Part shown: positions 11,194-24,024 of the stretch, piece by piece
Position numbering within the stretch: position 1 is the first letter of the stretch
Layout: each line of letters starts with the position of its first letter
The notes under the pieces: generated by a model
The model's database searches: none
What the model was told of the DNA's origin: nothing
Seen by the model: the letters and a program-made list of their open reading frames with translations, nothing else
DNA from: Lacinutrix mariniflava
Lineage (GTDB): Bacteria > Bacteroidota > Bacteroidia > Flavobacteriales > Flavobacteriaceae
Assembly (NCBI RefSeq): GCF_001418015.1
Contig: NZ_LIQG01000026.1
Coordinates: 682,001 to 746,000 of the forward strand
Length of the DNA stretch: 64,000 nucleotides
Direction of reading: 5' to 3'
Made by a program: the position numbers and the translations under genes

Positions 11194-11400
11194 ATGCCAA
11201 TAATTGTAAACTTAGACGTTATGCTTGCTAAGCGTAAAATGAAAAGCAAAGACTTGGCAGAAATTATAGGTATAACAACAGCTAACTTATCGATACTAAA
11301 ATCTGGTAAAGCAAAAGCAGTCCGTTTTTCTACATTAGAAGCTATTTGCGAAGCCTTAGAGTGCCAACCAAGTGATATTTTAGAATACGTTAAAAACTAG
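11194..11400 (+). CDS. XRE-family HTH regulator, YozG-like
   Basis: Small DNA-binding protein of 68 residues, almost entirely one Cro/C1-type helix-turn-helix: MPIIVNLDVMLAKRKMKSKD, then LAEIIGITTANLSILKSGKA (recognition helix) and FSTLEAICEALECQPSDILE. This matches the YozG-like family that accompanies DUF2975 membrane proteins. It is the last gene of the three-gene operon. The two dyads around the operon promoter are good candidate binding sites, giving an autoregulated unit in which the membrane proteins may modulate the repressor. Confidence 0.9.
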   Translation: MPIIVNLDVMLAKRKMKSKDLAEIIGITTANLSILKSGKAKAVRFSTLEAICEALECQPSDILEYVKN

Positions 11401-11654: not shown

Positions 11655-12755
11655 CTAAAAATTAATCTTCAACTGTGCACTAACACTTTTCTGTTCCACC
11701 TTTTTAGTCTTTTTCTCGGTATTTAAATTCGATAACGAAATACCCAAAAGCCGAACAGAGTTGTTTAGTTTTTCTTGATAGAGTAAATCTTTAGCAGTTT
11801 CTAAAACCACGCTTTTATCACTAATAAAATAAGGCAAGGTTTTACTACGTGTTTGCAGTGTAAAATCACTGTATTTAATCTTAAGTGTTACTGTTTTTCC
11901 AGCAACTTTACTATTGTTTAAACGCTTAGAAACTTCTTCGGCAATATGCTCTAACTTTTCAAGAAGAAACACTTCCGAAGATAAATTTTTATTAAAAGTA
12001 CGTTCTGCAGCTAAGCTTTTTCTTATTCGGTTTGGTTTTACCTCGCTGTTATGTATGCCACGAACAATGTAATAATAATGCGTACCAGATTTGCCAAAGT
12101 TTTTCTCTAAAAATTCTAAAGATTTAGATTTTAAATCGAGACCTGTATACACACCTTTTTGGTACATTTTTTCGGCAGTAACTTTACCAATACCATAAAA
12201 TTTTCTAATGTCAAGAGCTTCTAAAAAGTCTAAAACCTCCTCAGGATTTACTGTTTTTTGTCCGTTAGGTTTATTATAATCGCTAGCAATTTTGGCAACA
12301 AATTTATTTACAGAAATGCCGGCAGATGCAGTTAAACCAACCTCATTAAAAATGCGTGTTCTTATCTCTTCGGCAATAAGCGAAGCACTAGGATTTCCTT
12401 TTTTGTTTTCGGTAACATCTAAATACGCTTCATCTAGAGATAACGGTTCTACAAGATCTGTGTAATCTAAAAAAATGGCTCTAATTTTTTTAGAAATTTC
12501 TTTGTACCTATCAAATCGAGGTGGCACAAATATTAATTCTGGACATAAACGTCTTGCTTTTACACCACTAATGGCACTGCGCACACCAAATTTTCGAGCT
12601 TCGTAACTTGCAGCACTTACAACACCTCGTGTTCCGCTACCACCAACAGCTAAAGGTTTTCCAATAAGATCAGGATTATCCAACTGCTCTACAGATGCAT
12701 AAAATGCATCCATATCTACATGAATTATCTTTCTTAATGGTAAGCTTTCAGACAT
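11655..12755 (-). CDS. dinB: DNA polymerase IV (Y-family)
   Basis: Error-prone translesion polymerase of 366 residues, normal length for DinB. Catalytic motifs are VDMDAFYASVE (Asp14) and SLDEAYLDVT (Asp108, Glu109). The fingers segment GVVSAASYEARKFGVRSAIS is present, as is the little finger domain. The last six residues QLKINF fit the beta-clamp binding consensus Qxx(L/I)xF at the extreme C-terminus, as in Pol IV. Divergent from a DUF2238 gene with only 44 bp between. Its -7 element lies 4 nt from the ATG. I see no copy of the LexA-like palindrome found at 18140, so it may not share that regulator. Confidence 0.95.
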   Translation of the reverse strand: MSESLPLRKIIHVDMDAFYASVEQLDNPDLIGKPLAVGGSGTRGVVSAASYEARKFGVRSAISGVKARRLCPELIFVPPRFDRYKEISKKIRAIFLDYTDLVEPLSLDEAYLDVTENKKGNPSASLIAEEIRTRIFNEVGLTASAGISVNKFVAKIASDYNKPNGQKTVNPEEVLDFLEALDIRKFYGIGKVTAEKMYQKGVYTGLDLKSKSLEFLEKNFGKSGTHYYYIVRGIHNSEVKPNRIRKSLAAERTFNKNLSSEVFLLEKLEHIAEEVSKRLNNSKVAGKTVTLKIKYSDFTLQTRSKTLPYFISDKSVVLETAKDLLYQEKLNNSVRLLGISLSNLNTEKKTKKVEQKSVSAQLKINF

Positions 12756-13400: not shown

Positions 13401-13868
13401 ATGATAGAAATAGAACGTAAATTTTTAGTCCAGTCTCATGCTTTTAAAACTGAAGCTTTCAAACAAACCAGAATTGTACAAGGCTTTTTAAGCACAGATA
13501 AAAAACGAACGGTTCGTGTTAGGCTAAAAGGTGATATTGGTTTTTTAACTATAAAAGGCCAATCTTCTAAAAACGGATTGTCTCGTTTCGAGTGGGAAAA
13601 AGAAATTCCTAAAATAGAAGCAGAAGCTCTTTTAAAGCTTTGTAAAAAAGGCATGATCGATAAAATACGATATGAAGTTAAAGTAGATAATCACACCTTC
13701 GAAGTCGATGAGTTTTTTGGTAAAAACGAAGGTTTAATTGTTGCTGAGGTAGAATTAAACGATGAAACAGAAGCGTTTACTAAACCTAATTGGTTAGGAG
13801 AAGAAGTAACAGGAGATGCTAAATATTATAATTCACAATTAAGTAAAACACCTTTTTGTAAGTGGTAG
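13401..13868 (+). CDS. CYTH-domain protein (triphosphate tunnel enzyme family)
   Basis: CYTH (CyaB-thiamine triphosphatase) family protein of 155 residues. It begins with the family hallmark MIEIERKFLV (ExExK), followed by basic strands that line the tunnel (KKRTVRVRLKGDIGFLTIKG, then GLSRFEWEKEIP and KIRYEVKVDNHTFEVDEFFG) and an acidic strand GLIVAEVELNDE. Bacterial members act on inorganic triphosphate or related substrates with Mg or Mn; only some make cAMP, so I avoid the name adenylate cyclase. It overlaps no other gene and follows the DUF2238 gene by 1 bp. Confidence 0.9.
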   Translation: MIEIERKFLVQSHAFKTEAFKQTRIVQGFLSTDKKRTVRVRLKGDIGFLTIKGQSSKNGLSRFEWEKEIPKIEAEALLKLCKKGMIDKIRYEVKVDNHTFEVDEFFGKNEGLIVAEVELNDETEAFTKPNWLGEEVTGDAKYYNSQLSKTPFCKW

Positions 13869-13892: not shown

Positions 13893-15113
13893 TTACTGTC
13901 TTCTATTAGCTAATAAAGGTGGTGGCTCACCCGTAAAAGGATTCCAGCGACTAATAGATTTTGCTTCCATTCCAGATGCTTTAATAACACTTCTATCTCC
14001 AAAACGCTCGCGTAAACCATCTATGGCTTCAACTAAGTTAAGTTGTTTTTGGTTGTCTTGAAATAAATTAATTTGGTGTCCGCCTTCTACTAAATGGCTA
14101 AATTTTATACCAATTAATCGAACCAATAAACGTCTGTTATATAATTTAGTATAAAGTGCTAGCGCTATGGCTATTAAATCGTCGTCTAAAGAACTGTAGG
14201 CAATCCGTTTTTGTAAAGTATACGTTTGAAAATCTGAATATCTAATTTTAAAACCTACGCAAGCCGTTAATTTATTACCACGACGTAATTGAAACGCCAA
14301 ATTCTCGGTCATAGCAATAATAATACTTTTTAGTTTGTGCACATCTATTGTGTCTGTTTCAAAAGTACGCTCTGTAGAAATAGATTTACGTTCTTGATAT
14401 TGCACTACAGGATTATTATCTAAACCGTTTGCTTTTTGCCAAATGGTTAATCCATTTTTGCCAAGTACTTTGCGCATGTATTCCATTGGCATTTCTTGTA
14501 CGGTTTTAATCTGTTTAACGCCTAAGTCGCACAAGGTTTTGTAAGTAACAGTACCAACCATTGGTATTTTTTTTACTGAAAGTGGTGCAAGAAAGAGTTT
14601 TTCGTTTCCCGAAATAATACGAATTTCATTATTAGGTTTTGCTTCTCCAGTTGCAATTTTAGAAACCGTTTTATTAATAGACATACCAAAGGAAATAGGT
14701 AAACCTGTTTCTTTAATAATACGATGGCGTAACTCTGAAGCTTGCTTAAAACAACCAAAAAATTTATCCATTCCAGTAAGATCGATGTAAAACTCATCTA
14801 CCGAAGATTTCTCGTAAATAGGAACACTTTCTTTAATAATATCGGTGACTTCATTTGAAAATTTAGAATAAATACCAGAGTTACCTCTAAGTATAATAGC
14901 TTCTGGACAGAGTTGTTTTGCTAAACGCATTGGCATGGCAGAGTGCACACCAAAACGTCTTGCCTCATAACTACAACTTGCCACAACACCACGATCGCTT
15001 GTGCCACCAATTAATACAGGCCTGTTATTTAAACGACTGTCTAATTTACGTTCGCAGGATACAAAAAAAGTATCTAAATCCATGTGCACTATTGCACGCT
15101 TATTATCTATCAT
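13893..15113 (-). CDS. Second Y-family DNA polymerase, mutagenesis cassette
   Basis: Translesion polymerase of 406 residues, more UmuC-like in length than DinB. Motifs: VHMDLDTFFVSCE (Asp12), CSYEARRFGVHSAM, and SSVDEFYIDLTG (Asp106, Glu107), where Pol IV usually has DEAYLDVT. Catalytic acidic residues are therefore intact, unlike ImuB, which has lost them. QINLF at 347-351 fits the beta-clamp pentapeptide, placed about 55 residues before the C-terminus. Its start overlaps the end of the dnaE-like gene by 4 bp (ATGA), so the two are translationally coupled. The tail NPFTGEPPPLLANRRQ is unlike Pol IV. Probably damage-inducible through the operator at 18140. Confidence 0.92.
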   Translation of the reverse strand: MIDNKRAIVHMDLDTFFVSCERKLDSRLNNRPVLIGGTSDRGVVASCSYEARRFGVHSAMPMRLAKQLCPEAIILRGNSGIYSKFSNEVTDIIKESVPIYEKSSVDEFYIDLTGMDKFFGCFKQASELRHRIIKETGLPISFGMSINKTVSKIATGEAKPNNEIRIISGNEKLFLAPLSVKKIPMVGTVTYKTLCDLGVKQIKTVQEMPMEYMRKVLGKNGLTIWQKANGLDNNPVVQYQERKSISTERTFETDTIDVHKLKSIIIAMTENLAFQLRRGNKLTACVGFKIRYSDFQTYTLQKRIAYSSLDDDLIAIALALYTKLYNRRLLVRLIGIKFSHLVEGGHQINLFQDNQKQLNLVEAIDGLRERFGDRSVIKASGMEAKSISRWNPFTGEPPPLLANRRQ

Positions 15114-18109
15114 ATAGGTTTGTTATAATTGGGTTCTGGTACTATTACAGGTGCAATGGCGTAACGTGGATCTTCGATAATATCTAGTCGGTATATAGAT
15201 TTCACTTCTATAGTTGTACACCCAAATGATATGCTAACCGTGCCAACAATATCATAAATACCAGATCCTGACAATGGGTATTTTGCTGAAACTGGTGGAA
15301 AATGAACCGTGTCTATAAAATTGCCGTCATAATCTAAAAACGTTCCAAAAAACATGTTTTTATTATTTACTGTGCGTGTGTTTTTTAAAGTGATTAAATA
15401 GCCTTGAATATTAATAAGTCTTTTATTAAACTGAAGTAAATGCTTCGCACGCAATTTACTTTTTATGGGTTGCTGTAAAAGATTAAATATGTTACACAAT
15501 GAAAACCCTAAAAGTTCTAATTCATCAAACGCATTTTCTGTTAACGTACTTGGTAAATTAGGTGTGTTGTAATGTTTGCGTTCGGTTTTAAAAAGTGTAA
15601 TTTCTGGTGCTTCGGTTCTTGCTTTGTTTAGTTTTAAATGTGCTTCCCAAAGGAGTTCTCGCTTATTTCTTTTGGTAAATCTAAAAGCATTAATTTTTAT
15701 TAAAATGGCAATATGTTCTATAGAAATTGGAACGCGCTCTATAAAATCGTCTAAAGAGAGAAAGTTTCCGTTTGCTATTCTTTCTTCTAAAATACGATGA
15801 CTTACTTTTTGCTCAAAAGCGTGTAAAAGCATAAAGCCTAAATAGATGGTTTTCTGTTTAATGGTGGCTTCTATATTGCTTCGGTTTACGCATGGTGCTT
15901 CAACGATACCATTGTGCATTTTAGCTTCGTGTATATATAATTCGGTACTATAAAAACCTCCAAAATTATTAATGGTTGCCACCATATATTCCAAAGGATA
16001 GTAGGCTTTTAAAAATAGGCTTTGGTAACTTTCTACTGCATAAGAAGCACTGTGGCCTTTAGCAAAAGCATAACCAGCAAAACTTTCAATTTGTCTCCAA
16101 ATGTCTTGCGCTAAGGCATCTGCTTTTCCGCTGTTTTTGCAGTTATCGAAAAACTGTTGTTTTACTTTTAAAAACTCTTCACGAGAGCGAAATTTACCAG
16201 ACATACCACGTCTTAACATATCTGCTTCGCCTAAATTTAAACCACCAAAATGATGTGCTACCTTAATAACATCTTCTTGATAAACCATAACGCCGTAAGT
16301 ATCTGGCATTATTTCAAGTAAAGTAGGATGTGCATCTTTTCTACGCTCAGGATTGCGATGCCTTATAATGTATTGCTGCATCATCCCAGAGTTAGAAACA
16401 CCTGGTCTTATTACAGAACTGGCTGCAACTAAACCCAAATAATCATCCACTTGCAGTTTTTTTAAGAGCATGCGCATGGCAGGAGATTCTACGTAAAAAC
16501 AACCAATTGCTTGTGCATTTCGGAGTAAGTTTTTTATGCGATTATCTTGCTTAAACCGTTTAATATCATGAATATCTAAAGGCGATTGATTGGTGTAATT
16601 GGCATCAATAATTTCTACAGCTTCTTTAATTTTACCTAAACCACGCTGACTTAAAATATCGAATTTATAAAGTCCTATGTCTTCTGCAATTACCATATCA
16701 AAATGTGTGGTTGCATAGCCTTTTGGAGGCAAAAAAGTAGCTGTGTAGTGGTGTATGGGTTTTTCGACAATTAAAATACCACCAGCATGAATACCTAAAT
16801 AATTAGGAAAACCTTGAATATATTGACTATAAATTAAGACTAGTTTAGAGAGTTGATCTAATTGATTTACATCATACTTTCCTCTACTTAGTTTATCTAA
16901 TTCACTTTTTGGTAGCCCAAAAACTTTACCTAATTCTCTAACAGCTGCTTTAAATTTAAAGGTGTTGTAAACGGTAATTAATGCGGTGTTTTCATATTTA
17001 TTAAAAATATATCGTGTAATATCGTCGCGATCTCGCCATGAAAAATCAAGATCAAAATCTGGCGGATTGGTGCGATACATGTTTATAAATCGCTCAAAAT
17101 AGAGATCTAATTCTATCGGGTCTACATCTGTAATACGTAATAGATAAGCGAGAATACTATTGGCGCCACTACCACGACCAACATAGAAATAATTTTTACT
17201 TCTAGCATATTTTAAAATATCCCAGTTAATTAAAAAATAGGACACAAAGCCTTTTGCTTTTATAATGTGAAGCTCTTTTTCTATACGCGAATTAATGTTA
17301 TTATTTAATGTGCCATAACGATAAGCAACACCATTATAAGCCAATGTTTTTAATAGTTTATAATCGTCTTCAGCAGTTTGCAAAAAGTAGTGTTTATTTG
17401 CTGGTTTTTGGTTGTCTGAAAAATCAAAATCAATATTGCACTGTTGTAAAAGTGTTTCAGTGTTTTTTAAAATTTCAGGAAACGTTTCATATCTTTTTTC
17501 AATGTCTAAAGGTGTCTGGAAAATAGCATCTGCGTCACTTTGTTCACTTTTTGGGAGCTTACTTAATAACACATTATTATCGATAGCACGAAGGAGTCGG
17601 TGTGTGTTAAAATCTTTTTTATTTCTAAAAGTTGTCGTTTTTAGTACTACTAATTTCTCAAGGTCTATTTCTCGTTTAGAAAATTGTAATCGGCTTAGTT
17701 GGTCTGGTTTTATACCAAGAAATTCATTAGATTTTAATTGATAATTTACTTCAAAATCAAAAGGATAAATAATGAAACAGTCTTGGAGTTCTTCATCTAT
17801 AAATTCGGGTATTTTTAATGTTTTATCATGTAGAAATTGAGAGAGATAGCGATTAATCTGAGCAAAGCCTATGTTGTTTTTTGCAATCGCTATAAATTGT
17901 TGTTTTGCACTATTTCTAAAGTCTACGCCTAGTATAGGTTTGATATTATATTTTTTAGAAATCCTAACAAAGTCAAGGCAAGCAGAGGTATTATTAATAT
18001 CTGTTAGTACTAAGTTTTTGTGATTATTTTTAGCAGCCAAAGCAAGTAGCTCTTCAGGATTTATAGTCCCGAAACGTAAGCTAAAATAGCTATGACAATT
18101 TAAAAGCAT
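15110..18109 (-). CDS. Second DNA polymerase III alpha-type subunit (DnaE2/short DnaE)
   Basis: C-family polymerase of 999 residues, shorter than replicative DnaE (about 1160 in E. coli; Bacteroidota ones are longer still). The N-terminal PHP domain starts LLNCHSYFSLRFGTINPEEL. The palm has GRGSGANSILAYLLRITDVD and the catalytic PPDFDLDF (about 349-356). Then come the fingers (FAKGHSASYAVESYQSLFLK) and a C-terminal OB-like part ending near residue 960. A segment EITLF near 836-840 may be a weak beta-clamp motif. The operon with the Y-family polymerase and the divergent LexA-like gene shows a role in induced mutagenic repair rather than chromosome replication. Confidence 0.93.
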   Translation of the reverse strand: MLLNCHSYFSLRFGTINPEELLALAAKNNHKNLVLTDINNTSACLDFVRISKKYNIKPILGVDFRNSAKQQFIAIAKNNIGFAQINRYLSQFLHDKTLKIPEFIDEELQDCFIIYPFDFEVNYQLKSNEFLGIKPDQLSRLQFSKREIDLEKLVVLKTTTFRNKKDFNTHRLLRAIDNNVLLSKLPKSEQSDADAIFQTPLDIEKRYETFPEILKNTETLLQQCNIDFDFSDNQKPANKHYFLQTAEDDYKLLKTLAYNGVAYRYGTLNNNINSRIEKELHIIKAKGFVSYFLINWDILKYARSKNYFYVGRGSGANSILAYLLRITDVDPIELDLYFERFINMYRTNPPDFDLDFSWRDRDDITRYIFNKYENTALITVYNTFKFKAAVRELGKVFGLPKSELDKLSRGKYDVNQLDQLSKLVLIYSQYIQGFPNYLGIHAGGILIVEKPIHHYTATFLPPKGYATTHFDMVIAEDIGLYKFDILSQRGLGKIKEAVEIIDANYTNQSPLDIHDIKRFKQDNRIKNLLRNAQAIGCFYVESPAMRMLLKKLQVDDYLGLVAASSVIRPGVSNSGMMQQYIIRHRNPERRKDAHPTLLEIMPDTYGVMVYQEDVIKVAHHFGGLNLGEADMLRRGMSGKFRSREEFLKVKQQFFDNCKNSGKADALAQDIWRQIESFAGYAFAKGHSASYAVESYQSLFLKAYYPLEYMVATINNFGGFYSTELYIHEAKMHNGIVEAPCVNRSNIEATIKQKTIYLGFMLLHAFEQKVSHRILEERIANGNFLSLDDFIERVPISIEHIAILIKINAFRFTKRNKRELLWEAHLKLNKARTEAPEITLFKTERKHYNTPNLPSTLTENAFDELELLGFSLCNIFNLLQQPIKSKLRAKHLLQFNKRLINIQGYLITLKNTRTVNNKNMFFGTFLDYDGNFIDTVHFPPVSAKYPLSGSGIYDIVGTVSISFGCTTIEVKSIYRLDIIEDPRYAIAPVIVPEPNYNKPI

Positions 18110-18132
18110 GAATATTAATTTTTAGGTGGCTA

Positions 18133-18140
18133 CAAAATTA
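18133..18140 (-). promoter_or_regulatory. -7 element of the dnaE2-like operon
   Basis: On the minus strand TAATTTTG (TAnnTTTG match), 24 nt before the dnaE-like start and directly beside the 17-bp palindrome. Confidence 0.45.
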
Positions 18141-18156
18141 ACTACATATTGTAGTT
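18140..18156. promoter_or_regulatory. Palindromic operator between the divergent damage genes
   Basis: AACTACA TAT TGTAGTT is a perfect 17-bp palindrome. It lies between the -7 elements of the two divergent genes, so one bound repressor could silence both. Additional half sites, CTACAA (18130-18135) and TTGTAGT (18171-18177), flank it. The XRE-S24 protein encoded next to it is the likely ligand. Confidence 0.65.
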
Positions 18157-18165
18157 TTGATTGCT

Positions 18166-18173
18166 TATATTTG
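18166..18173 (+). promoter_or_regulatory. -7 element of the LexA-like repressor gene
   Basis: TATATTTG (exact TAnnTTTG) lies 9 nt before the start at 18183. Confidence 0.5.
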
Positions 18174-18182
18174 TAGTAATAA

Positions 18183-18959
18183 ATGTTAAAAATGAAATAC
18201 ATACAACACAACATAAAACACCTGCGTAGTTTAAAAAAGCTTTCGCAAGAGCGTTTTGGCGAAGAGCTAAAATGGTCACGTTCTATGGTTGGGTCTTACG
18301 AAGAAGGTAGAAGCGAACCGCCAATAGAACGCCTTATCGAGCTTTCTAATTTTTTTGATATACCTATTGATATTTTGGTGAAGAACGATTTGCGCTCTGC
18401 CAAGGATACCTCATTTATACAAATAGGAAGCAAGCGTATATTGTTTCCGGTAACGGTAAATGAAATGGACGAAGATTTAATAGAAATAATACCAACACAA
18501 GCATCTGCAGGTTATTTAGAAGGCTATGCCGATCCAGAATATATTGAGCATCTACAAAAAATTAAATTGCCATTTTTGCCCACAGGAACACATCGTGCGT
18601 TTCCAATAAAAGGAGATTCTATGTTACCAGTAAAAGATGGTGCTTTTATTGTGGCTAAATATGTTGAGTCTATTGCAGACGTTAAAAACGGACGTACTTA
18701 TATTTTACTTACAAAAGACGATGGCTTGGTCTATAAACGTATTTATAAAACGAAGGATAATGAGAATGCGTTGTTATTATCGTCAGACAATAAAGCGTAC
18801 GAACCTTATTTGGTACAATATGAGTCAATACTTGAATTATGGGAGTTCACGTGTTGTATTAATACTCAAGAATACGACGAGAAAGAACTTAAATTAAGTA
18901 GTATCATGAATTTATTTCAAGAACTTAAGGTTGAACTTGAAGCTATAAAAAAAATGTAA
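18183..18959 (+). CDS. XRE-S24 (LexA/CI-like) self-cleaving repressor
   Basis: Repressor of 258 residues with an N-terminal Cro/C1 helix-turn-helix (about 8-62: HLRSLKKLSQERFGEELKWS, RSMVGSYEEGRSEPPIERLI) and a C-terminal S24 peptidase domain (about 100-230). Self-cleavage residues are visible: Ala109-Gly110 (QASAGYLEGY), the Ser146 nucleophile (KGDSMLPV) and Lys185 (LVYKRIYK). It should therefore be inactivated by RecA-stimulated autocleavage, as LexA and lambda CI are. It is divergent from the dnaE-like gene with a palindromic operator between them. A second Met at codon 4 is an alternative start. It probably controls the whole cassette including itself. Confidence 0.9.
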   Translation: MLKMKYIQHNIKHLRSLKKLSQERFGEELKWSRSMVGSYEEGRSEPPIERLIELSNFFDIPIDILVKNDLRSAKDTSFIQIGSKRILFPVTVNEMDEDLIEIIPTQASAGYLEGYADPEYIEHLQKIKLPFLPTGTHRAFPIKGDSMLPVKDGAFIVAKYVESIADVKNGRTYILLTKDDGLVYKRIYKTKDNENALLLSSDNKAYEPYLVQYESILELWEFTCCINTQEYDEKELKLSSIMNLFQELKVELEAIKKM

Positions 18960-19015
18960 TGTTTTAATATAAAGCAGTATATTTAAAATGAATTATTAAA
19001 TACAAAGTAGAAATT

Positions 19016-19459
19016 ATGATTGTTCCAAAAAGTAGTGATAGTATAACGTTTTTTAACCCAGAAAGTGAGGTTACAGAAGGTATTCCATTTTTCGACACGG
19101 GTATTTCTGCTGGTTATCCAGCGCCAACTGAAGATTTTTCTACACAAAGATTGTCTTTAGACGATACACTTGTTAAAAATAAAGAAACCACCTTTTATGC
19201 TAAAGTAAGCGGACAATCCATGATAGGTGCAGGATTAGATGATAACGATTTATTGGTAATTGATAGAAGTTTACAACCCGAAAACAATAAAATAGCAGTT
19301 TGTTTTCTTGATGGTGAATTTACTGTTAAGCGTTTAAGAGTTACCAAAGATGAAATCTGGCTACAACCAGAAAACCCTAACTATCCTATTATAAATATTA
19401 CTGAAGATAATAACTTTCTTATTTGGGGCATTGTAACAAATGTGATTAAAAAGGTCTAA
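19016..19459 (+). CDS. UmuD-like S24 peptidase
   Basis: Self-processing translesion accessory protein of 147 residues, the length of UmuD. Cleavage site Ala32-Gly33 (DTGISAGYPAP), nucleophile Ser68 (VSGQSMIGAGL) and Lys105 (FTVKRLRV). The Ser-Lys spacing of 37 equals that of E. coli UmuD (60 and 97). It has no DNA-binding domain. It is normally paired with umuC directly downstream, but here the next gene is an M61 peptidase, and the only nearby partners are the two Y-family polymerases on the minus strand. It starts 56 bp after the repressor gene, probably in the same transcript. Confidence 0.9.
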   Translation: MIVPKSSDSITFFNPESEVTEGIPFFDTGISAGYPAPTEDFSTQRLSLDDTLVKNKETTFYAKVSGQSMIGAGLDDNDLLVIDRSLQPENNKIAVCFLDGEFTVKRLRVTKDEIWLQPENPNYPIINITEDNNFLIWGIVTNVIKKV

Positions 19460-19494
19460 CTAATTACTATTTTAACAGCTATATTATTTAAAAA

Positions 19495-21258
19495 ATGAAA
19501 TCACTCTTTTCTTTTCTTGCCTTTTTTTTAACAACATTTCTTTTTGCTCAAGACATAAACTATTCTATAAGTTTTGAAAACGCAGTACATCATGAAGCGT
19601 CTATTAATATTTCATATAAAAACCTAAAAGGCAGTTCTCTGTTGGTTCAAATGAGTCGTACATCTCCAGGGCGTTATGCTATTCATGATTTTGCAAAAAA
19701 CGTGTATAATGTAAAAGCATTAAATAGTAAAGGAGAGGCTTTAGAAATTAAGCGTGTAAACCCGCAAGCTTGGGAAATTTTAAATCACGATAGTACAGTA
19801 AATATTTCGTACACTTTATTTGCAAATAGAGCAGATGGAACATACAGTCAAGTAGACGAAACTCATGCACATCTTAATGCTCCAGCAACATTTATGTATG
19901 CGCCAGCTTTAAGTGAAAATGCTATGGAAATAACGTTTGAGTCTAGAACAGATTTAAACTGGAAAGTAGCAACACAGCTACCTTTAAAAATCGGAACTAC
20001 TTATACTGCCCCAAATTTGCAGTATTTTATGGATAGTCCAACAGAATTAAGTAACTATAGCAAACGTAGTTTTAAAGTTAAAAATCAAGAGATTGAGTTT
20101 GTATTGCATCACAAAGGATCGGAAAAGGATTTAGATACTTACTTCGAAAAAGTGAAGAAAGTTGTTTTAGCAGAAGAAGCTGTGTATGGTGAGTTACCAA
20201 GTTTCGATTACGGGAAATATACATTTTTAGCATGCTATATTGGTAATGTAAGTGGCGATGGAATGGAGCATAGAAACTCTACTATTTTAACAGATAAAGA
20301 AGGTTTAGCCGAAGGCGGAATGGAAGGGAATATAGGTACTGTTTCTCATGAGTTTTTTCATGCATGGAATGTAGAGCGTATTCGTCCTCAGTCACTTGAG
20401 CCTTTTAATTTTGAAGAAGCAAACATGAGTGGAGAACTTTGGTTTGCTGAAGGTTTTACAAGTTATTATACCAATCTTATTTTATGTAGAGCAGGAGTAG
20501 TTACGCCAGAAGCGTATGTTTCTGGATTAAATAGAACTTTTAATTATGTATGGAATTCTCCAGCACGAGAGTTTTTTAATCCTATTGAAATGAGTTATCA
20601 AGCACCATTTGTGGATGCTGCATCGTCAATAGATCCTGTAAATAGAGACAATACTTTTATTTCGTATTATTCTTATGGAAGCGTTTTAGGTTTAGCATTA
20701 GACTTGTCTTTACGTGAAAAAGGTTTGAATTTAGATGATTATATGAAACTAGTATGGACTACTTACGGAAAAACAGAAACACCATATACTATTAAAAACC
20801 TTAACGACTTATTAAATACATATGCTGATGAAGCTTTCGGAAATGCGTTCTTTAAAAATTATATTTATAAAAGCGAAATGCCAGACTACGCGTCTTTGTT
20901 TAAAACGGTAGGATTAAAAATGGAGCAAGATTCTAAAAGGAACTTTACGGGTCTTTCGTTAGATAAGAATATAGTGTCTAGGAGTGCTAAAATAGGATCT
21001 CCAGCTTATGTATCAGGTTTAGAGAAAGGAGATAAAATAACGAGCGTAAATGGCATTAAAATAGATGAAACGAATACCGTTGAGACTATTATTAAAGCTT
21101 CGGAAAAGACGGCACTGGATATTGAGTATCTTAGAAATAAAGAAACTAAGACCGCAAAATTAGAGTTGGTTCCAGATCCAACATATACCATTAGTATTTC
21201 TTTGGAAGATAAAAACCGAAAGGCTGAAAAACAAAGAAAGGCTTGGCTTAAGCAATAG
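19495..21258 (+). CDS. M61 family metallopeptidase with PDZ domain
   Basis: Secreted or periplasmic zinc peptidase of the glycyl aminopeptidase (M61) family, 587 residues. Signal peptide MKSLFSFLAFFLTTFLFAQ. The N-terminal beta domain contains PGRYAIHDFAKNVYNV. The gluzincin motif is SHEFFHAWN (His about 284, His288), with the third ligand in ELWFAEGFTSYYTN. The C-terminal PDZ domain covers about residues 490-570 (LDKNIVSRSAKIGSPAYVSG, KGDKITSVNG). The family cleaves N-terminal Gly/Ala from peptides. It has its own spacer from the umuD-like gene (35 bp); any link to DNA damage is doubtful. Confidence 0.93.
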   Translation: MKSLFSFLAFFLTTFLFAQDINYSISFENAVHHEASINISYKNLKGSSLLVQMSRTSPGRYAIHDFAKNVYNVKALNSKGEALEIKRVNPQAWEILNHDSTVNISYTLFANRADGTYSQVDETHAHLNAPATFMYAPALSENAMEITFESRTDLNWKVATQLPLKIGTTYTAPNLQYFMDSPTELSNYSKRSFKVKNQEIEFVLHHKGSEKDLDTYFEKVKKVVLAEEAVYGELPSFDYGKYTFLACYIGNVSGDGMEHRNSTILTDKEGLAEGGMEGNIGTVSHEFFHAWNVERIRPQSLEPFNFEEANMSGELWFAEGFTSYYTNLILCRAGVVTPEAYVSGLNRTFNYVWNSPAREFFNPIEMSYQAPFVDAASSIDPVNRDNTFISYYSYGSVLGLALDLSLREKGLNLDDYMKLVWTTYGKTETPYTIKNLNDLLNTYADEAFGNAFFKNYIYKSEMPDYASLFKTVGLKMEQDSKRNFTGLSLDKNIVSRSAKIGSPAYVSGLEKGDKITSVNGIKIDETNTVETIIKASEKTALDIEYLRNKETKTAKLELVPDPTYTISISLEDKNRKAEKQRKAWLKQ

Positions 21259-21274
21259 CATTATTTAGTAGTAT

Positions 21275-21298
21275 AAACCCATTATTTTTATTGGGTTT
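21275..21298. terminator. Bidirectional terminator between convergent genes
   Basis: AAACCCA (21275-21281) and TGGGTTT (21292-21298) form a stem, with T/A runs outside. It sits between the stops of the M61 peptidase and the acetyltransferase. Confidence 0.6.
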
Positions 21299-21985
21299 TT
21301 ATTTTCTACGGTATAGTAACCAGTTCATGTCTCTGGTTAGTTTGAAACCTAATCTTTTATAAAGAGGAATGGCTAAATTCCCTTTATTGGTGTGTAATAT
21401 AGGGAGTTTGTTTTCTTTTAAAATAGCTTTTGTTGTGTGCGTAATTAATTGCTTCGCAAATCCGTTTCCGGTATAATCTGGGTGTGTAACAACGCCACTA
21501 ATTTCAATAAAATCGTCAGTTTGCATTCTTTGACCTGTAATAGCAACAAGTTTATTGTCTTTAAAAATACCGAAATATTTACCCATTTCGAAACCTCTTT
21601 TTCTGTAAAATCCTGGCATTACTAACCATATTAGATTGTAGACATCATCTATATAGTTTTCTGTTAGTTGTACAATGTCTTCGGTTATTTTAATATCTAC
21701 AAAGTTTTCTAAAACCATTTGACACCCGTCAATTTTACGCTCTAACACAACAGTCTCGGTATCTATAATAGGCGTTTTGTTTTCAGAAACTATAAAGAAA
21801 CTTTCAACTAATTTAGAATATGCGTTTAATGATTTTTCTGTTTTAGTACTGTCTAAAACGGCTCCGAAATTACATACGTCTGGTTGGTAGAATTGGACAC
21901 TGTCGTGTGGTATAACAAATTTATTGTGAGTTTCATTTAATGAATACCAAACAGGGTTTTCTAATTTGTCTTCTAGTGTTTTCAT
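21299..21985 (-). CDS. GNAT-family N-acetyltransferase (FR47-like)
   Basis: Acetyl-CoA-dependent acetyltransferase of about 228 residues. The C-terminal half has the GNAT core: YFGIFKDNKLVAITGQRM, EISGVVTHPDYTGNGFAKQL (the R/Q-x-x-G-x-G/A pyrophosphate-binding motif in the form YTGNGFA) and LHTNKGNLAIPLYKRLGFKL. This matches the FR47-like group. I prefer the ATG at 21985 (MKTLEDKLENPVW) over one 30 bp upstream, because it follows a more usual spacer. The N-terminal 110 residues are not recognised. Substrate unknown. Confidence 0.85.
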   Translation of the reverse strand: MKTLEDKLENPVWYSLNETHNKFVIPHDSVQFYQPDVCNFGAVLDSTKTEKSLNAYSKLVESFFIVSENKTPIIDTETVVLERKIDGCQMVLENFVDIKITEDIVQLTENYIDDVYNLIWLVMPGFYRKRGFEMGKYFGIFKDNKLVAITGQRMQTDDFIEISGVVTHPDYTGNGFAKQLITHTTKAILKENKLPILHTNKGNLAIPLYKRLGFKLTRDMNWLLYRRK

Positions 21986-22069
21986 AAAAAATGAATATAT
22001 AAAACGAGCAATCAATGTAAGTTTTAAATTAAGCTATATTTTTTTAAGAGTAATGATAAATTTGTATAA

Positions 22070-22100
22070 AAAAAAAACGCTTCAGATACATCTGAAGCGT
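22070..22100 (-). terminator. Terminator of the atpDC operon
   Basis: ACGCTTCAGA (22077-22086), TACA loop, TCTGAAGCGT (22091-22100). On the minus strand the stem is followed by a run of T residues (A run from 22068). It lies 29 bp after the atpC stop. Confidence 0.9.
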
Positions 22101-22128
22101 TTTTTATAATTTGTAAAGCAATCGCTAA

Positions 22129-22422
22129 TTAATCAGCTAAAATAATTGCCTTATTATCTTTCATCTCTAATGTTCCAGATTTGATTTTTACTGTCAATAC
22201 TTTGTTATCATCGAAATGAGGTACAACACTACCATGTAAATCATCAAAAACAAGATGAGATTGAGAGTGCGTGTTAATTTTAACAGTACCTTCTGCTAAT
22301 ACAGCTACAATAGCTGCGTGATTATTAAGCATTTGAAACTCGCCATTCATTCCTGGTACAGTTACAGCATCTACTTCACTACTAAATAAAGTCGCTTCTG
22401 GTGATACAATTTCTAAATACAT
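22129..22422 (-). CDS. atpC: F1 ATP synthase epsilon subunit, short form
   Basis: Central-stalk subunit of F1, 97 residues. It begins MYLEIVSPEATLFSSEVDAV and continues TVPGMNGEFQMLNNHAAIVA, which is the epsilon N-terminal beta-sandwich. The C-terminal two-helix domain present in E. coli epsilon (total about 138 residues) is absent, so epsilon-type conformational inhibition of ATP hydrolysis is not expected. It follows atpD by 90 bp. In many Bacteroidota the beta and epsilon genes lie apart from the other atp genes, as here. Confidence 0.95.
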   Translation of the reverse strand: MYLEIVSPEATLFSSEVDAVTVPGMNGEFQMLNNHAAIVAVLAEGTVKINTHSQSHLVFDDLHGSVVPHFDDNKVLTVKIKSGTLEMKDNKAIILAD

Positions 22423-22512
22423 CTTTTAAATTTTATTTAAAAGCTTCCGAGTAATCGAAAGTCTCATTTTTATTAAACAGAGGCCGAAAATAAATTCAGC
22501 ACTTACTTTGGC

Positions 22513-24024
<1,512 letters not shown>

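Follow-up and report, generated by a model that had tools for sequence, protein, structure and literature searches.

We propose that in the window (the whole 64,000-nucleotide stretch of DNA analysed here) umuC has given way, most likely through recombination, to a DnaE2B-PolY2 translesion cassette that stands at the same site and has a LexA-like repressor of its own, and that the UmuD protein encoded next to it is a remnant of Pol V; we hold this reading with good confidence. The core layout is known, while the history of umuD is new. By comparison of closely related genomes, the locus amounts to a replacement experiment performed by nature, and it bears on a type of cassette that, according to the excerpts of the literature available, has so far been known from computation alone.

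Layout of the locus and the PolY2-DnaE2 cassette

The overall organization of the locus is as follows.

11655-12755, minus strand: DinB (Pol IV); apart from PolY2, no further Y-family polymerase was found in the genome
13866-19087: block occupying the site at which the sister genome has umuC and umuD codons 1-24 (blastn ends against L157/G303, synteny, DnaE1 tree)
13893-15113, minus strand: PolY2, Y-family polymerase, 406 aa (open reading frame, domains, residue alignment)
15110-18109, minus strand: DnaE2, 999 aa (open reading frame, domains, neighbours in relatives, Asp motifs)
18133-18140, minus strand: TAnnTTTG-like -7 element toward dnaE2-polY2 (read from the sequence)
18140-18156: candidate operator AACTACATATTGTAGTT, a perfect palindrome with the core CTAC-N5-GTAG at 18142-18154
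18166-18173, plus strand: TAnnTTTG-like -7 element toward the repressor (read from the sequence)
18183-18959, plus strand: XRE-S24 LexA-like repressor, 258 aa, with Ala-Gly cleavage site, Ser and Lys (open reading frame, domains, motifs)
19016-19459, plus strand: UmuD, 147 aa, without UmuC (model match, alignment, residues)

The four open reading frames of the initial annotation are all present, and domain and model searches place them in the families it had named. PolY2 comprises IMS and IMS_C domains and matches Pol IV profile models far better than UmuC models (best E 8e-88 vs 6e-25), while DnaE2 contains DNA_pol3_alpha, finger and HHH_6 domains together with a partial PHP match. The repressor combines HTH_3 with Peptidase_S24 and has the cleavage site and Ser/Lys pair of a non-canonical LexA. 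UmuD is a Peptidase_S24 protein that matches NF007621, the curated Pol V UmuD model, with 153.5 bits (cut-off 110). The polY2 and dnaE2 genes overlap by 4 bp (15110-15113) and are thus probably co-transcribed; the repressor gene is divergent from dnaE2, and umuD starts 56 bp past the repressor on the same strand. Additionally, a small Cro/C1-type HTH gene (HTH_26) lies at 11194-11400 of the window, and DNA of this type of gene recurs beside PolY2 or UmuD in L040 (12228-12461), L137 (3881-4113), L141 (15495-15772) and L152 (9529-9763).

D12, D106 and E107 of PolY2 are kept in the window and in 63/63 aligned relatives (64/64 rows), in agreement with the earlier view that this polymerase is catalytically intact. 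Near its C-terminus, PolY2 carries the clamp motif QINLF, followed by a segment resembling the RecA N-terminus, as judged by eye against the RecA of the same genome. The DnaE2 motif PPDFDLDF of the window recurs as PPDFDxDF in 62/65 rows and KFDIL in 65/65; DnaE2 appears to be of the B type, as assigned by its close relatives, the phylum and the published association. Among the 50 repressor rows (the window and 49 relatives at ≥250 bits), 49 have the cleavage motif, 46 the Ser motif and 45 the Lys motif.

We fetched 64 relatives with the window DnaE2 as query, a sample that leans towards close kin. PolY2 lies within ~1.3 kb of DnaE2 on the same strand in 63 of them, the 64th being cut by a contig edge, which argues that the pairing is not due to chance. 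DnaE2 comes first in 53 of these 63 loci and PolY2 in 10; a divergent repressor relative is found within 900 bp in 47/63, and UmuD behind the repressor in 3/64 relatives (L023, L040, and L046). In L016, L021, L024, L036, L045 (Gelidibacter), L061, and L062, the DnaE2 and PolY2 frames lie apart, with ~0.5-1.3 kb of additional DNA between them. Base composition was uninformative as a sign of foreign origin, the G+C content of the cassette being 0.330 against 0.329 and 0.337 in the flanks.

The initial annotation was unsure whether this layout had been described in Bacteroidota; as far as the available excerpts go, it has been, without UmuD (PMC6511836, PMC12926913). The former (2019) reported a Bacteroidetes PolY2+DnaE2 operon with two apparently active polymerases, taking Cellulophaga algicola as the type, and proposed that RecA takes the place of ImuA, and the latter (2026) named the system DnaE2B-PolY-RecA and reported models of the complex. 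The window shares with it a PolY with an intact active site and a RecA-NT-like segment, encoded in one operon with DnaE2 and with no adjoining ImuA, but differs in having an attached UmuD and an in-place replacement of umuC, neither of which is named in the excerpts of the published accounts. Likewise, the excerpts of open-licence literature that were searched describe neither a UmuD attached to a DnaE2-PolY2 cassette nor a UmuC-less UmuD in Bacteroidota.

The site of umuC in the window and in related genomes

The genome encodes two IMS proteins, DinB and PolY2, and a search at E 1e-50 found no UmuC in it. In G303 (L157), a genome of the same genus, the genes run DinB, DUF2238, CYTH, UmuC, UmuD, M61, GNAT, atpC, and atpD; the window keeps this order from DinB to atpD, except that PolY2-DnaE2-repressor stand where G303 has umuC. 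The blastn match between the two (91% and 88%) stops at 13865, immediately ahead of the CYTH stop codon, and restarts at 19088, which is umuD codon 25, leaving 5,222 bases between the break points in the window and 1,628 in G303. The synteny with G303 and these break points are better explained if UmuD is the leftover of a umuC-umuD pair. As with G303, the match to G153 ends before umuD and resumes at 19088. L023 and G085, which hold the cassette and UmuD, match in one uninterrupted stretch (72%) that starts next to the PolY2 stop and ends at the umuD stop, and the matches to G145, G169, and L040 are gapped inside the cassette, yet continuous through the umuD start.

In a DnaE1 DNA tree of 12 genomes, the window genome is sister to G303 (96/98), and the pair stands beside G307 and G299 (100/100). 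Since G303, G307, and G299 all keep umuC-umuD in place, the replacement most likely dates to the branch of the window genome itself. Elsewhere in these sister genomes lies another PolY2, which is more distant (~63% identical) and has no counterpart in the window genome.

To place the locus in its family, 299 Flavobacteriaceae genomes were searched for UmuC at E 1e-50, for PolY2 at E 1e-120 and for UmuD above the model cut-off. UmuC was found in 152 genomes, PolY2 in 155 and UmuD in 141, with weaker UmuD matches in 52 more left uncounted. PolY2 occurs in 25/152 genomes with UmuC versus 130/147 without it, so that by these raw counts, in which kinship is ignored, UmuC and PolY2 largely exclude each other. 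We suggest that in Flavobacteriaceae the same job is done either by Pol V or by DnaE2B-PolY.

A candidate shared operator and its repressor

The divergent promoter shared by dnaE2-polY2 and the repressor gene spans 73 bp and contains the palindrome. TAnnTTTG is the -7 consensus of Bacteroidota, and an element resembling it faces each way. For the 45 DnaE2-first loci whose divergent repressor lies no more than 900 bp away, we looked for CTAC-N5-GTAG up to 110 bp from the estimated start. An exact site is present in 23/45 (0.03 expected from mononucleotide shuffles) and a site within one mismatch in 34/45, the remaining 11 having no such site in the scanned stretch. The 8 DnaE2-first loci without a repressor within 900 bp, 2 of which have a repressor relative farther off, yielded no exact site, one site with a mismatch and GGA-N5-TCC in 4. 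By these counts, regulator and operator go together in DnaE2-first loci. Among the PolY2-first loci, the 2/10 with a repressor have neither CTAC-N5-GTAG nor GGA-N5-TCC, and the 8/10 without one have an exact CTAC site once and GGA-N5-TCC once.

With one shared operator, the repressor most likely controls both itself and dnaE2-polY2. The conserved candidate operator in the shared promoter is in keeping with the earlier proposal of a self-regulated system for these genes, whereas UmuD as a built-in part of it is not supported. XRE-S24 LexA-like regulators of Bacteroidetes have been described, in the excerpts of PMC8565304 (2021), with one lying opposite an error-prone polymerase gene in Elizabethkingia. 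The repressor of the window resembles these non-canonical LexA proteins in joining HTH and S24 and in the palindrome with an N5 spacer in its own promoter (a predicted operator here), but the core is CTAC-N5-GTAG rather than CTAA-N5-TTAG, GGA-N5-TCC or TTAC-N5-GTAA. The main text of PMC12926913 has no word starting with CTAC or GTAG.

A wider regulon was sought through the operator core and found no support: CTAC-N5-GTAG is not enriched genome-wide (32 sites versus 34 for the reversed pattern), and none of its sites in the genome is near recA. The genome has three S24 matches in all. On these grounds the repressor is read as acting locally on the cassette, with further targets possible. The third S24-like stretch, L005 (G000:C26:31105-31515), lies inside a 1153-codon open frame. 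Extra CTAC/GTAG half-sites flank the main operator at 18130-18133 and 18173-18176 of the window, and an TATTTRCTACAAATA element recurs on the repressor side in relatives (e.g., L008, L022, and L066); half-sites and TATTTRCTACAAATA perhaps form a second, weaker operator site.

The predicted course of events would be as follows. The repressor would sit on CTAC-N5-GTAG between the divergent promoters and keep both shut. Upon DNA damage, RecA filaments would stimulate its self-cleavage at Ala-Gly, as expected from its family and residues, and DnaE2 and PolY2 would then be made together. PolY2 may bind the clamp via QINLF and RecA via the RecA-NT-like segment, and both polymerases would share in bypass. 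The umuD gene, behind the repressor and in the same direction, is probably co-transcribed with it.

UmuD after the probable loss of UmuC

Window UmuD retains A32-G33, S68, and K105, which we take to be the cleavage site and the catalytic pair by analogy with E. coli UmuD. It is thus like the UmuD of E. coli Pol V (UmuD'2C-RecA), but no UmuC was found in the genome, the polymerases are PolY2 and DnaE2, and the tip of the UmuD' arm reads GYPAPT instead of GFPSPA. In a first residue set (31 UmuC-linked and 24 other rows, outliers excluded from both), columns 34, 36, 38, 42, 45, and 58 stood out. We then used an enlarged set of 67 UmuC-adjacent rows, 61 from a family draw (70 of 122 UmuDC genomes read) and 6 from the genus. 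F34, S36, and A38 are invariant in all 67 and in E. coli; columns 42, 45, and 58 were dropped as invariant positions, with K42 in 52, R45 in 56 and A58 in 63 of 68 rows (E. coli included). GFPSPA, the start of UmuD', is intact in 67/67 UmuC-adjacent rows, in 6/10 with UmuC elsewhere (G308 grouped here) and in 5/22 without UmuC. L023 and L040, whose genomes encode only two IMS proteins each, also keep it, giving 7/24 intact and 17/24 changed. The absence of UmuC was taken from the 299-genome search and, for G300-G302, from a separate genus search. G301 was kept in the 22 and 24 UmuC-less rows and left out of the second UmuD tree, the Fisher test and the DnaE1 tree; the stops in its UmuD and DinB look like assembly errors, since its DnaE1 is in pieces.

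Of 42 columns conserved at ≥98% in UmuC-adjacent rows, 32 never change in 21 UmuC-less rows, among them G33, S68, and K105. The changes concentrate at columns 34 (7), 36 (6), 38 (12), and 40 (3), with 0-2 at each of the others. Allowing for kinship on a tree built without the tested columns, we obtained 8 independent pairs, of which 4-5 change in the expected direction and none against (median p 0.06); adding further non-adjacent rows gave 10 pairs, 5-6 in the expected direction and none against (median p 0.03). For A58, 6-9 pairs follow the expected direction and at most 1 goes against it (median p 0.008). Of the near-invariant columns, those changed most after UmuC loss lie at the tip of the UmuD' arm, whose end lies near the UmuC active site in the AlphaFold model of Pol V, as given in the excerpts of PMC11791011 (2025), and this provides independent support for that model. 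The arm-tip columns also give named residues to test.

The dN/dS of window UmuD against its genus-mates is 0.06-0.13 (dS saturated), which indicates that UmuD is under selection. Its dN is 0.13-0.18, compared with a mean of 0.034 for umuC-linked genus pairs. The window and G303 proteins share 35/62 of the first 62 residues and 80/85 of the last 85. This uneven divergence points either to rapid change of the arm or to a foreign umuD 5' end brought in together with the block, for which no close donor turned up. On a UmuD tree of 63 rows, window UmuD falls with its genus-mates and L023, L040, and L114, with no firm support. On the best tree, linkage to the cassette was gained or lost 5 times, and supported branches account for at least 3 of these changes. 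Together, UmuD is best seen as a probable Pol V remnant under purifying selection, freed of the constraint that UmuC would impose on the arm and perhaps being re-tasked, possibly by adapting to another polymerase.

What UmuD does now may be read in several ways. It could serve as a checkpoint protein for DinB or the replicative polymerase, a role reported for E. coli UmuD, its arm having merely lost the UmuC constraint, a reading we regard as credible but somewhat doubtful. A DinB-like match is present in the genome and in 12/12 other genomes of the genus (with stops in the poor assembly G301), and in E. coli, DinB, alpha, and beta are all binding partners of UmuD, according to the excerpts of PMC5342242. 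G308 fits as well, having an orphan-type, changed-arm UmuD and no PolY2. However, the same substitutions recur (F34Y, S36A, A38T, A58T, though position 42 scatters), which suggests more than release.

That recurrence would rather favor a new role for UmuD' within PolY2-DnaE2-RecA, as subunit or activator, with its changed-tip arm entering the cleft of PolY2 as it enters that of UmuC; we rate this reading as unlikely. UmuD is matched in 13/13 genus genomes, with stops in G301 alone, and both its low dN/dS and the repeated changes of cassette linkage are in line with this reading. Moreover, 18 of the 19 genomes with UmuD and no UmuC have PolY2, and the exception, G079, is 81% complete and has a UmuC-type-looking UmuD. 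An exclusive tie between orphan UmuD and PolY2 nevertheless found no support: PolY2 is also present in 112/128 genomes with neither UmuC nor UmuD (p 0.70 once UmuC absence is allowed for). Most cassette genomes have no UmuD, G308 shows the changed arm without PolY2, and PolY2 has no matching change, with 1/271 conserved columns changed in ≥3/7 UmuD-bearing cassettes (mean 0.39 in controls, max 6). For PolY2, DnaE2, and the repressor of UmuD-bearing cassettes, the counts of reciprocally changed columns (1, 4, and 3) do not rise above the range of random sets (means 0.39-0.59, max 5-10). A PolY2 partnership of UmuD is therefore possible, and its fullest form, a four-part enzyme DnaE2-PolY2-RecA-UmuD' in which the cassette took umuC's place, with UmuD of altered arm tip as activator, several times in Flavobacteriaceae, is a speculative proposal that we would not expect to hold; if true, the changed UmuD residues would map the UmuD'-polymerase contact.

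It is quite unlikely, in our judgement, that UmuD is vestigial and heading for loss. Its raised dN and the 112/130 UmuC-less PolY2 genomes without UmuD above the cut-off agree with decay, but part of the higher dN may stem from a foreign 5' end, the catalytic and core residues are kept (not one of the 21 UmuC-less rows differs at 32/42 near-invariant columns), and dN/dS, with dS saturated, is well under 1. An ImuA-ImuB-DnaE2 mutasome with UmuD replacing ImuA, as initially annotated, shares with the window a Y-family protein coupled to DnaE2 and an adjoining LexA-like repressor, but is highly improbable, since the intact PolY catalytic residues in 64/64 rows rule out filing it as ImuB/ImuA, a RecA-NT-like segment is present, no ImuA or ImuB-C adjoins (no ImuA between 13893 and 19459, and PF00154 matches RecA alone in the genome) and UmuD is mostly absent. 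The counts of UmuD, beside the cassette in 3/64 relatives and not above the cut-off in 112/130 UmuC-less PolY2 genomes, speak against UmuD as a replacement of ImuA or activator of DnaE2, and in the excerpts of PMC6511836 and PMC12926913 it is RecA, bound by the PolY RecA-NT motif, that takes this place.

UmuD, with or without UmuC, is repeatedly found near atpC-atpD (L087, L097, L100, L103, L108, L111, L133, L138, L143, L146, L147, and L150), a long-kept place for the locus (window 19016-24021). In the genus-mates L163, L164, and L165 (G294, G091, and G308), another umuC is found elsewhere, paired with a distant UmuD that matches window UmuD at 31-32%.
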